Source: Pelagomonas calceolata
Taxonomy: Eukaryota > Sar > Pelagophyceae > Pelagomonadales > Pelagomonadaceae
Assembly: GCA_918797485.1 (NCBI GenBank)
Contig: CAKKNE010000003.1
Coordinates: forward strand, 2,418,001-2,482,000
Length of the DNA: 64,000 nucleotides
Reading direction: 5' to 3'
Positions within the stretch are counted from its first letter, which is position 1. The number at the start of each line of letters is the position of its first letter. Shown one piece after another: positions 8,475 through 47,900 of the stretch. The position numbers were made by a program, and so were the translations under genes. Below the pieces are notes generated by a model. That model was not told where the DNA came from and searched no databases. It was given only the letters and a program-made list of their open reading frames with translations.

Positions 8475-9075
8475 TCAGGACCACGGGCACGACGCGCAGA
8501 CGGCCGGCCGGAAGATCCAGAGGATGATCGCCGCGATGACGGCAGACGTCGGGATGGTCAGGATCCAGGACACGAGGATCTTCCCGAGCATGGACCACTG
8601 GACGTGCTTGCAGCCGAGCGAGGCCAGCGCGACGGCCGTCACGGCGCCGATCTGGCAGTGAGTGGTAGAAACGGGCTGCTCCTGGATGGTGGCGATGACG
8701 ACGGACAGCGTCGAGCCGAACTCGATGCACCAGGCCGTGTGGAAGTCGACCGTCGCGATCTTGGACCCGACGGTGCGGATCACGCGCCAGCCGAGCGACC
8801 AGACGCCGAGCAGCACGAAGAAGCCGCCCACGGCCATGATCCAGACCTGTGTGGAAATCGGCCAGTGAGTTAGGTTATCTGAGCAGACGCAGCTACGGAG
8901 ACAACATCGCGTCGATGGCGTGGGGCGCCCGAAATTTGATTTCCACACAGATCCAGACGGGCGTCTCCGGCTGGTCGCACGAGTCGAGGCCGTTCTGGTA
9001 CGTGCCGAGCGTCGCCGAGAAGGCCGCCGTCGCGTTCGCCGTGTCGTTCGCGCCGTGGGCGAAGGACTGGACCCA
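8475..9075 (-). pseudogene. C-terminal half of a PiT-type phosphate transporter, 5' truncated
   Basis: Two exons encode only the second half of a PHO4/PiT transporter. Exon A (about 9075-8959) has the signature FAHGANDTANATAAFSATLG; after an intron at 8958-8847, exon B reads VWIMAVGGFFVLLGVWSLGW and on through four to five TM segments with QPVSTTHCQIGA, the second PiT signature. In-frame joining at the intron gives TPVWIMAVGG. No N-terminal half is found between here and the divergent CFAP52 gene; the reading frame hits a stop at about 9110. PiT proteins co-transport phosphate with Na+ or H+ and need both halves, so this is probably a truncated duplicate, or the 5' exons are unrecognised. Confidence 0.65.
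8839..8958 (-). mobile_element. Introner element forming an intron (best-preserved copy)
   Basis: A 104-bp element at 8847-8950 with perfect 13-bp terminal inverted repeats (CTGTGTGGAAATC at 8847-8859, GATTTCCACACAG at 8938-8950) and a perfect 8-bp target duplication (ATCCAGAC at 8839-8846 and 8951-8958; GTCTGGAT in the gene's sense). Spliced as an intron of 112 nt, the donor GT is the first two bases of the duplicated target and the acceptor CAG is the end of the inverted repeat, so removal restores the pre-insertion reading frame exactly. It holds the shared core CGTCGATGGCGT at about 8910. No protein is encoded; it must be mobilised by another enzyme. Confidence 0.9.
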
Positions 9076-9709
9076 CAGTCGAGCTCGAATCGGCCGGGTT
9101 TTCTAGGCCTCCCAGATATCGATGATATTGATACCTGGTGGGAACTCCCGACGACCTTCGGAGCCGTGGCATCGGCAGCTGGCGAGCCCATCACCCGCGG
9201 GCGCGCGACGACCGCGAACAGCGCAATGTGCTCAGTTAGACCCAGCCACAGGTAACGCACCTCCCATCGGCTAGAAAAGCCCACGTGAAGACCTGAGACC
9301 AAGCGGATTACTTAAACTCTAGGATAAATCGGAAAGGAAAGCAACCAGGACACAGAGCTGCCCAGGCAACGCTGGGAGATGGATCCCCCGCCGCGGACCG
9401 CCGGGCGACCCTGTACGCGGATGAACGCAGAAATAGTGTAGCTACGCTACAGGGGCAACGCCGCGGACGTCACGGTCGACCAGGTCGTCTGGCCCCACGG
9501 TAAGCGTAGAGCACGAGCTCGTGCGCCGCTTGAGGCGAGCCTGCTACGGTGCGAGGACTACTGAGACTGCTGCGGCTTGTCGGGTTTTTACTACAAGCTA
9601 CGCTACATTATGCCATAGCGCGACCGGCGGGGCAGCTAACGAAAAGCGCCGGCCCCAGCGCGTCCAAGGGAGCAGCAGTGCGAAGGGGGCAGCGACCGGG
9701 GCACCGACC

Positions 9710-36598: not shown

Positions 36599-37405
36599 TT
36601 ACTCGATGACGACCACGTCGTCGTCGTCGTCCGGCAGCGGCCGCTTCCGGTACTTGTCCGCCTCCTGCCTCAGGCGCCGCTCGTAGGCCGGCCGGTTCCG
36701 CTCGTAGAGCGTCTGGACCTCGGGCCGCGCGCCGGCGGGGAACGGGTTGTCCAGCAGCTCCTGGATCGCGCACAGAATTTGCTTGATCGTGATCGACGGC
36801 GACCACTGGCCGTGCCACGTCCCGTCGGGCTCGTTCAGCAGATTGAGGCAGATGCGCCCGCTGCTCCAGACGTTCAGGTGCCAGAAGACCTGTGCGTAAA
36901 ACAAAATTTCACGGCGCATTCGTGCTGAGTCGTCGCGTCGACCTCCACGCCAGACGCGCCGGCTCACTGGTTGATTTGTGCACGGTTCTTCGACCTCGCC
37001 CGGCCGCGACACGAACTTGACGACCGGCGCCGTCGCGGGGTAGTCGCTGGAGAACTCCATCGTGAGGTTGAACTCGCAGCCCTCCCACCTGCACGCGCGT
37101 GGCGTCGTCATCAGGGTGCGTCGCGGCGATGGCGTGACGGTGGGTAGCACGTCTCGCGTGCGCCGTGCGGGGACGCCGTCGTGCCGACAAGACGTCGAGA
37201 CACGACCCGATACGAGTATGAGAAGGCACCGCGGACGCGGAAACGCGTACATCGTGTCCTTCTTGCCCGGGATGACGACGTCCCAGTTCAGGAGGTCCGT
37301 CGACCCGTCGGCCTTGCTCCGAGGCCGCGCGACGAAGCCGATGGGGTGGTCCTTGCGCCAGCTGCGCCGTTCCTCGCGGAGGCGTCCTTCGGCTATGCCG
37401 GCCAT
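36599..37405 (-). CDS. UBC9: UBC9, SUMO-conjugating E2 enzyme
   Basis: Three exons, 37405-37251, 37088-36995 and 36889-36599, give 179 residues. MAGIAEGRLREERRSWRKDH and PIGFVARP match UBC9 strongly, then NWDVVIPGKKD, WEGCEFNLTMEFSSDYPATAP, and after the active site SGRICLNLL the diagnostic ITIKQILCAIQELLDNP. The catalytic Cys is present. The usual HPN motif reads HLN. The C-terminus DDDDDVVVIE is an extension that looks like a SUMO-interacting motif. The second exon's end is uncertain: a donor at 36994 (used here) or one at 37013 both keep phase; the first fits the introner pattern, the second leaves a shorter loop closer to other UBC9s. Confidence 0.85.
   Translation of the reverse strand: MAGIAEGRLREERRSWRKDHPIGFVARPRSKADGSTDLLNWDVVIPGKKDTMYAFPRPRCLLILVSGRVSTSCRHDGVPARRTRDVLPTVTPSPRRTLMTTPRACRWEGCEFNLTMEFSSDYPATAPVVKFVSRPGEVEEPCTNQPVSRRVWRGGRRDDSARMRREILFYAQVFWHLNVWSSGRICLNLLNEPDGTWHGQWSPSITIKQILCAIQELLDNPFPAGARPEVQTLYERNRPAYERRLRQEADKYRKRPLPDDDDDVVVIE
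36890..36994 (-). mobile_element. Introner-derived intron 2 of UBC9
   Basis: 105 nt. After GTCGAAGAA the sequence CCGTGCACAAATCAACCAGTG closely follows the start of DENR intron 1 (CCGTGCGGAAATC, then AACCAGTG). The core is degraded (GCGTCTGGCGTGG). The acceptor is CGCACAG. Confidence 0.65.
37089..37250 (-). mobile_element. Introner-derived intron 1 of UBC9
   Basis: 162 nt, donor GTACGCG, acceptor GCGTGCAG, phase 2. It carries CACGCCATCGCCGCGACGC at about 37120-37138, the complement of the core variant GGCGATGGCGT. Confidence 0.75.
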
Positions 37406-44987: not shown

Positions 44988-47900
44988 ATGGCAACAACCC
45001 TCGCCCCGCGCGCGCCCTTCGACGCAAAAAAAGCCGCAGCAGCCATGGACGCGAAGCTCCTCCCCTTCCAGAAGGAAGGCGTCGCGTTCGGCCGGCAAGT
45101 CAAAGGACGGGTCCTGATAGCGGACGAGATGGGCTGCGGCAAGTCGGCCCAGGCCATCCGATTATGTTTAGAATACGCGGACGAGGCGCCCGTATTAATC
45201 GTGTGTCCCGCGTCGTTACGCTACACGTGGGCGCACGAAATTGAAAAATGGCTCCCGACACTAGCGCCCTCCGAAGTCTCCATCGCGAAGGGTCGAGCGG
45301 ATCGCGAGGCCGTCGCGCGAAAAGGCGTCCGCTTCGTGATCGTGACCTATTCATTGTTCACGGAGAGCTCGCAAGTTGCAAGTGCTGTGAGACAACGAAA
45401 ATTCAGAGTTGTGGTGGTGGACGAGTCCCATTCGTTGCGGACGCGGGACTCGCAGCGCACGAAACTATTACTGCCGATCATGAAAAATGCTTCTCGGTTG
45501 CTACTGCTGTCGGGCACGCCGGCACTCGCAAGACCAGTAGAGCTCTACGCCCAGGTCCACGCCTTGGATGAGAAGGAGTTCGGCACCTACTCCGCGTATA
45601 CGAAGCGCTACTGTAATGCGAGACGGGGCCGCTTCGGCTGGGACGTGACTGGTTGTAGCAACGCGCAAGAATTGCACTCAAAACTGGCCAAGGTCATGGT
45701 GCGGCGCCTGAAGCGCGACGTGTTGTCGCAGTTACCGCTTGTGTCAGTGTGGAAACCAACCAGGGAGTGTGGGGCGCGTCGATGGCGTCAAGGCGAGAGA
45801 CTCAGTCGACGCGGTCGAGACGCGCGTGGCCTGGCCAAGCGCCTCGACGGTGTAGTGGCGCGTCGATGGCGTGAAGCAGGGCGCACGTCGCGTCGATGGC
45901 GTCTGGGTCGGCCCGCAGCGATGGCTGGACGCCGTCGACACGCCGCCACCGCGAGAGAAAAGGCCATCGACGCGACACAACACAAAAACGAAACGCAGGC
46001 GCAAGCGCCGCCAGCTCGTCGCCGTCGAGGCCGTTGATAAGAAAGCTCTCGACGAATCGAAGAAGGCCTGTTCGTCACTCGGAGACGCCTCTCGAGCCAT
46101 CGCAAATGCCTCGAACGAGGACGCGTGGGAAAAGCGAGGTGAGAAGCAAGTGGCATTGGGCGACGCGTGGCAGAAGTCGGGCCTCGCGAAAGCCTCAGCG
46201 GTGGCCGCCTACGCTCTAGATTTGCTACAAAACCAGGGAACGAAAATACTGGTCTTTGCCCACCACAAGGCCGTGATGGACGCGCTCGAACAAAACTTGG
46301 TGCGAGGTCTGAAGGGCGCCAAGGCCATGATGCGCATCGATGGGACGACGCCGCCGCGGGAACGCCAACGATTGGTGGAGGCCTTCCAGAACAATCCTGG
46401 AACTAGATTAGCTTTGCTCAGCGTGACGGCCGCCGGGACTGGTTTAACATTAACGGCGGCCTCGGCCGTATTATTCGCGGAGCTCCACTGGACGCCTGGT
46501 GTACTAGTGCAGGCCGAGGACCGAGCGCATCGCATCGGCCAGCACGCCTCGGTGAACGTGCATTACTTAGTATTGAAAGACGAAAGTCAGTCGGTGGACA
46601 TGGCGCTCTGGCGGGCCATCGGCAACAAGGTTAAAGTCGTCGGCAAGACCATCGATGGGATGGAGAAGGCGTCGCTAGGCGCGACGGCGGCGACGGCGCC
46701 GCGTTCGGAACAGGACGCGCTCGTGTCGTTCTTTGATCAGGAAGGGGCCCGGGCGCAACAAGTCGCCAAGGCGGATATTCGGTCGTTCTTCGCTCCGAAA
46801 AAGAAGAAGGCCCCTCCACCAGAATTAGATGATGCTGCGCTGATCCGCGCGACCGAGGCGGCCGAGCGCGCCGCGGCGGCGCCAAAACCGAAGCGCTACG
46901 ACCCGCGCACGCTCCTCGCGGCGCCGGCGCCCGCGCCCCCGAAGAAGCGGCGCTCCTCCGAGGGCTCGGGCTCCGCTGCCGACCCGCTCGACCTCTGCCT
47001 CTCGTCGGACGACGAGAAGGAGGATCAGCGCTGGCCCTGCTCGGCCTGCACGTTCGCCAATGACTCGAAGCGCACGACGTGCGAGATCTGCGCGACGCCG
47101 CGGGTGCGGGCGAGCTCGTCCTCGACGGCGGCGGTGCCACGGCGGTCCTCCGCCTCGTCAACATCCTCATCACCGTTGACGACGCGCTACGCGTTCAGCG
47201 TGTCGGCCAACACGGGCCGCGTGTCGGCCTTTTCTTCGCGTGAGGGCGCTCCTTTCGCGCGGCTCATGGACGCCTTTGATCCCGCGGTTCTAGTTGATGG
47301 CGAGGGCCGGCTATTACCTTTATCGGCCGACGACCTCGGGTTGGACGATGATGATGATGCGAGGGCGGTCAAGAAGTTCGTGGCGGCGTGGCGCTCTTTG
47401 AGAGCCGTGGACCGCCAGACTTTATCAGGAGACGAATTGCTGGAGGAGGCGCTCGACGTCGAACTTAGGAAAAGGCGCGCCTCGTCTTCGGACAAGTGCT
47501 TCGACCGCGGCGTCGCGCGGCCGCGGAAGCGGGCCCGCGCCGACGGTGATGAGGACGACGATAAGAGAGCGTGCCCCTGGTGCGAGAAGCCGCTGCCATC
47601 GGACGCGCCGGACGGTTCTTTTTGTGATTGGGCGTGCGCGTCCGAGCATAAATTACGAAAGCCGAACAACTCCCAGGCGTCACGGTCGCAGTTATTTGCT
47701 TTAGAACACGGCGTCTGCACGGCTTGTGGTTTGGACGCGCACGCTTTGTACAGACGCGTCAAAGCATTAACGCCGCCGGAGCGCTTCCAGGTGCTCATGG
47801 CGACGCCGGGCTTTGCCCCTCGCGGCAAGAAGGACCGCCGGTTAGATACTTGTCTGGAATGCGACTACTGGCAGGCCGACCACATCATACCCGTCGCGGA

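Follow-up and report, generated by a model that had tools for sequence, protein, structure and literature searches.

Introner elements with 8-bp target duplications in Pelagomonas calceolata and a duplication-free lineage with a shared donor sequence

Introners with terminal inverted repeats (TIRs) and target-site duplications (TSDs) were reportedly described in Aureococcus and Micromonas by Huff et al. in 2016, and Verhelst et al. are said to be the authors of the reverse-splicing proposal for Micromonas. The spread of introners in some algae has been argued to be DNA transposition, and that of fungal and, earlier, Micromonas introners to be reverse splicing. The excerpts available from Gozashti et al. 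(2022) distinguish TSD and non-TSD introner families with several ways of splice-site recruitment (PMC9860276). In the relevant sections of other reports, reverse splicing is proposed for Micromonas introners (PMC3879977), direct and inverted repeats are given for Amoebophrya introners (PMC7789003), and the seamless, TSD-less spread of fungal introner-like elements and stwintrons is contrasted with the algal DNA mechanism (PMC8469720, PMC12403724). For P. calceolata, the main text of the genome paper describes a 32.4-Mb assembly of six nuclear contigs plus plastid and mitochondrion, large duplicated ends common to contigs 1/5 and 3/6, 16,667 genes with 0.45 introns per gene (therefore about 7,500 introns), and an Introner Element length peak at ∼210 bp, which is compared with Aureococcus (PMC9481584).

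The window copy and its host gene

The window analyzed here is a stretch of 64,000 nucleotides of the P. calceolata genome; the features of its introner are listed in Table 1. Both 8-bp flanks of the element read ATCCAGAC (GTCTGGAT on the coding minus strand). A screen of the window for perfect 12-base inverted arms with starts 40–420 bp apart gave 47 pairs, and the element was the only one with an 8/8 flanking direct repeat. The element length, inverted ends and target duplication given in a preliminary description were all confirmed on re-measurement, the ends and the duplication being perfect.

Table 1. Features of the introner and its host in the window
Feature	Position	Strand	Remarks
C-terminal fragment of PHO4 phosphate transporter, intron host	8475..9102	-	Stop precedes in PHO4 frame at 9103-9105
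Introner element, 104 bp, 13-bp perfect TIRs	8847..8950	-	Coding strand: A end first, B end last; family matches elsewhere
Upstream target-duplication copy GTCTGGAT, donor GT source, inside predicted intron	8951..8958	-	GT/GC at equivalent place in 54/54 confident TSD copies elsewhere
Downstream target-duplication copy GTCTGGAT, stays in exon	8839..8846	-	
Predicted intron, 112 nt, GT...CACACAG	8847..8958	-	Runs 8958->8847; GT from upstream flank, CAG from element end
Branch-point-like CCTAACTCAC in B end	8865..8874	-	Complement reads GTGAGTTAGG; CTAACTCAC belongs to B-end search pattern

Cutting out the predicted intron joined ...ETPVWIMAVGG... in frame, as had been proposed, and the joined protein matched Pfam PHO4 with an E value of 1.8e-39 over profile positions 212–350 of 350. 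With the element retained, a stop lies inside it in the PHO4 frame; one other frame, of 275 amino acids (8475–9302), is open through the element, and the upstream exon there falls outside the PHO4 frame. At 37% identity, a full-length PHO4 paralogue runs uninterrupted across the insertion site. Removal of the segment from mRNA is predicted from this continuity of frame and protein. When the window intron was folded alone as RNA, the 8-nt donor was unpaired and adjacent to a 13-bp stem that runs up to the acceptor (z -2.56; equal stability in 2/200 shuffles).

The host gene had been described as looking like half a gene, and this holds: the sequence upstream of the host exon to about 9720 contains no coding-like frame (best 6 per 120-nt step vs. 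23 in the exon), and a whole-genome PHO4 search found no isolated N-terminal half. The other PHO4 matches are a full-length locus at C1, two pieces at C5 and a C-terminal piece at C1; the full-length locus and the two pieces at C5 are apparently one duplicated region. That C-terminal piece (C1:2247700-2247966) is a second C-terminal-only match, and the same 3-kb locus holds an introner of 71 bp with an 8/8 TSD. Located in a gene fragment, the window copy may itself be under no selection. It is a shorter form of the family, and the suggestion that it is recent is plausible from its perfect ends; against it, the best full-length relative among the candidates scored in a DNA search of the assembly is 91% identical.

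Several side observations were made in the window. We take CCTAACTCAC in the B end to resemble a branch-point motif, and the same bases are donor-like (GTGAGTTAGG) on the other strand; despite this, the frame-fitting donor lies in the duplication for both orientations. At 36890–36985 lies a further copy of this type, diverged and probably older, with ends recognizable at 3 and 4 mismatches; the reading frame hosting it, presumably that of a ubiquitin-conjugating enzyme as judged from the translation, is open through the copy. A lone degenerate B-like end at 45745 (2 mismatches to the first 15 bases), with no partner end identified, lies in what we assume to be a helicase gene.

Copy number, target duplications and splice sites of the family

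A 27-base B-end pattern (up to 3 mismatches) gave 718 matches in the assembly (32,445,274 bases, 8 contigs), duplicated chromosome ends being counted twice, and the reversed-pattern control gave 0. With the element as query, a DNA search in which 40 of 447 candidates were scored gave 57 matches at E ≤ 10, of which the weakest are no better than chance; matches recur in the contig pairs 3/6 and 1/5 noted above for their duplicated ends (C3:118777 with C6:3790639; C1:369345 with C5:369261). Copies of similar sequence, with inverted ends common to the family, interrupt many unrelated gene positions. If most copies are introns, the family could be near a tenth of all introns of this alga.

Within the fetched loci, where copies were sampled by likeness to the window element rather than at random, 92 elements could be paired. 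The duplication length is 8 bp, with 33 of the 92 at 8/8 and 68 at 6/8 or better, which bears out the expectation that a genome search would reveal further copies with 8-bp duplications. A codon model built from 17 reading frames of the window served to call coding strands from the flanks (right strand for 105 of 107 240-nt fragments, by resubstitution); the call was confident for 69 elements and not for the other 23. Copies with a TSD of at least 6/8 and a confident coding strand form class 1 (n = 54, 56 to 204 bp long, 14 of them at 199–204). The window copy is not among the 54 and was checked separately.

The preliminary description derived the donor from the duplicated target and the acceptor from the element end, and every class-1 copy is built in this way: the upstream 8-mer opens with GT (39) or GC (15) on the coding strand, and the 3′ end is AG. 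On the opposite strand GT/GC occurs at the same place in 21/54. The remaining 14 TSD copies, without a confident strand, all have GT/GC at one or both ends. Removal of the 8-mer together with the element left the frame continuous in all 48 decidable class-1 copies (6 unsure), vs. none of 50 when the element alone was removed (4 unsure); all four alternative cuts gave 0. As a separate observation, GC donors at 15/54 are a high share by the usual yardstick for spliceosomal introns.

Either orientation can be used, as was anticipated, because both inverted ends carry the same acceptor: among the 38 class-1 copies with both ends typed, 19 are AB and 19 BA, the other 16 having an end outside the A and B types. 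Perfect 8/8 duplications were found in 26 of the 54, and these are 26 different words. Both results bear on an account in which every copy spread by reverse splicing only and the 8-bp duplications are incidental. Such an account would accommodate the GTCGAGAG lineage described below, which is seamless, in frame and has a single donor; however, reverse splicing gives neither duplications nor mixed orientation. We regard it as extremely improbable and as largely refuted, being contradicted by the locus-specific duplications and the two orientations.

Anatomy, copy number, duplications, donor position and frame were read directly from the assembly, and the window copy is very probably a non-autonomous DNA transposon (MITE) of this large introner family, in which the TSD and the element ends give the predicted intron. 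A transposase acting in trans would insert the element into an exon and duplicate 8 bp. The upstream duplicate would then serve as donor (GT or GC) and the element end as acceptor (CACACAG), and splicing would remove the element plus one duplicate and restore the original message. Exonic copies without a GT/GC donor would presumably be purged, limiting survival in exons to duplications that start with GT or GC.

We searched for an autonomous element carrying the family ends and found none with MULE, hAT and KDZ profiles. The MULE profile PF10551 gave 0 hits in the assembly, and the KDZ search gave 0 hits as well, a result that is uninformative because no control responded. For hAT (PF05699) the only matches at E ≤ 0.01 were two ORFs on the minus strand (L098:1396-3162 and L099:922-3204). 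With regard to membership among hAT MITEs, the 8-bp TSD agrees, and no paired match to the family ends was found around the two ORFs in the stretches covered, which stop short of the ORF ends. At L099:549 a possible end with 2 mismatches was discarded, as it was single-copy in the pattern search, with one control hit. In the viral contigs, three exact family patterns gave no match.

A duplication-free lineage with a shared donor

A recurrent 8-mer was seen among the TSD-poor copies. Exact matches to GTCGAGAG or GTCAAGAG followed by the B end CTGTGTGGAAATCA number 16 (13 and 3, respectively; control 0), and four further sites keep the donor 8-mer with one mismatch in the B end. These copies are referred to as class 2. 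Three loci that carry GTCGAGAG (L043, L069, and L097) were dropped since they have no 3′ end within 2 mismatches, and L005 and L012 were merged with L003 and L007. The 15 class-2 introns with a readable 3′ end represent 14 independent sites, L007 and L008 being paralogous genes; for the other flank pairs the best similarity had an E value of 0.007 in DNA and 0.2 in protein.

Removing the 8-mer plus the element keeps the frame in 15/15. Past the junction, the L094 frame meets a stop after about 30 residues; in L055 and L096 the stops of the joined frame come close to the end of the stretch. Pfam was searched with the joined peptides of nine of the 15 introns, each from a different gene, and seven matched. 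In five of them (MMR_HSR1 GTPase, ABC transporter, ion channel, PARP, and M32 peptidase) the match clearly spans the junction near residue 50, the M32 peptide aligning 100 residues on 100 profile positions. The pirin match starts about four residues before the junction, and in GH31 the junction lies between two domains; the joined peptides of L010 and L096 had no Pfam match. No target duplication surrounds the class-2 unit, the agreement between exon suffix and prefix being at most 1 nt in the 15 introns. The last base of exon 1 is G in 10/15 class-2 vs. 14/54 class-1 introns (p 0.006), and exon 2 begins with G in 14/15, the second base being free. These borders resemble the G/G proto-splice site.

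At the position of GAGAAAATATCG in class-2 cores, TSD copies show GAGACAACATCG or other variants. The comparison set comprised the 48 copies whose core could be read (14 class 2, 30 TSD, and 4 neither), L086 and L095 lying outside it. The linked core substitutions are present in 14/14 class-2 and 0/30 TSD copies (Fisher 9e-12; without paralogues 12/12, Fisher 9e-11). FastTree placed the 14 class-2 cores in a clade that holds no other copy, with a support of 0.27 over about 70 nt; we give this clade no weight, and the argument for a lineage rests on the linked substitutions. Its boundary is not perfectly clean. The diagnostic core pattern has 23 genomic matches, 16 with donor GTCRAGAG, and in four of the other seven (L100, L101, L104, and L105) the donor is closely related to it. 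In L103 the diagnostic core is partial, with donor GTCGCGAT and a 5/8 duplication; L011 has the pattern with donor GTCGGCAC and degraded ends; and L102 has it without a GTCGAGAG-like donor and looks recombinant. Three of the four copies assigned to neither group carry the class-2 substitutions wholly or partly (L011, L104, and L103).

The account we favor, and consider probable, is that the duplicated 8-mer of one insertion, GTCGAGAG, joined the mobile unit, after which the whole intron spread seamlessly and without TSD to at least 14 independent sites; DNA transposition would thereby have given way to copying of the intron itself, probably through reverse splicing. The founder would be a class-1 insertion whose intron, including its donor, became the copied unit through reverse splicing or a similar RNA-based route; it would be a GGAGAAAATATCG copy flanked on either side by GTCGAGAG. 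This reading is based on the 8-mer being intronic by frame, of TSD length, donor-starting, and traveling with an element lineage.

The same copies could in principle have arisen by ordinary DNA transposition, with duplications since decayed and an 8-mer shared by convergence or target preference. Copies with partly decayed duplications do exist, L004 agrees with the 8-mer at 5/8 places, and L103 combines a partial core with a different donor and a 5/8 duplication. However, mean core identity is 97.2% in class 2 (14 rows including paralogues) vs. 92.0% in 13 perfect-duplication class-1 copies; class-2 cores are thus the more alike, yet no class-2 duplication has been kept, so loss of an old duplication does not explain them. 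Of 75 exact GT-N6-B-end matches, 9 have GTCGAGAG and 3 have GTCAAGAG, and in 20,000 sets made by column resampling of the other 63 no 8-mer occurred more than 6 times; among 23 A-end matches GTCGAGAG occurs 0 times and GTCGAGTG once. The frame places the 8-mer inside the intron, and it goes together with the linked substitutions. We consider decay with a convergent or preferred 8-mer unlikely.

A third explanation is that the GTCGAGAG lineage moves as DNA, either carrying its flank along without duplication, for which the coupling sequences of Tn916 are an analogue, or through a transposase that cuts a changed end. Both the missing duplication and the donor-derived flank would then be explained without RNA. 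This requires a mechanism unfamiliar for eukaryotic TIR elements, among which we know of none for flank-carrying, duplication-free mobility, and the GT that opens the flank coincides exactly with the first bases of the intron, only one base of the flank varying across the 14 independent sites. We hold movement as DNA to be possible but doubtful. The sense-only orientation of the lineage does not discriminate, because antisense copies would be purged.

Another donor 8-mer, GTACGCGG, is present at three B ends (C3:174161, C3:592084, and C6:3735284), one pair of which is probably a duplicated chromosome end. These sites are possibly a second small captured-donor group.

Comparison with described introners

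Intron-level spread from a captured donor would mean that one family shows both modes of copying, in which the donor from a single DNA insertion traces the later intron-level copies. A switch in copying mode is directly testable in a cultured alga and bears on the origin of new introns. In the titles, abstracts and text sections searched, mostly of open-access papers, no report of a captured-donor lineage was found.

The published intron length peak of ∼210 bp comes from the same genome (main text of PMC9481584), and the 203-bp form of the family plus 8 gives 211 bp. Like the Aureococcus and Micromonas introners in the excerpts from PMC9860276, the family consists of short repeated introns with TIRs, its 8-bp TSD is as in the Aureococcus sp. 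example, and, as in families described there, the TSD supplies one splice site and the element the other, leaving the message length unchanged. Unlike those introners, compared here by description and not by sequence, it has a daughter lineage with a fixed donor and no TSD. In seamless, TSD-less insertion and in its inverted ends class 2 resembles the fungal introner-like elements and stwintrons of the sections cited above, and it shares sense orientation with the Micromonas reverse-splicing case (PMC3879977). In contrast to the fungal families, for which those sections describe no TSD copies, class 2 is nested in a TSD-making DNA-transposon family and its donor is TSD-derived in look. We concluded that the window copy belongs to a type already described, the DNA-transposon-type introner, and that the proposed captured-donor lineage is the new part.
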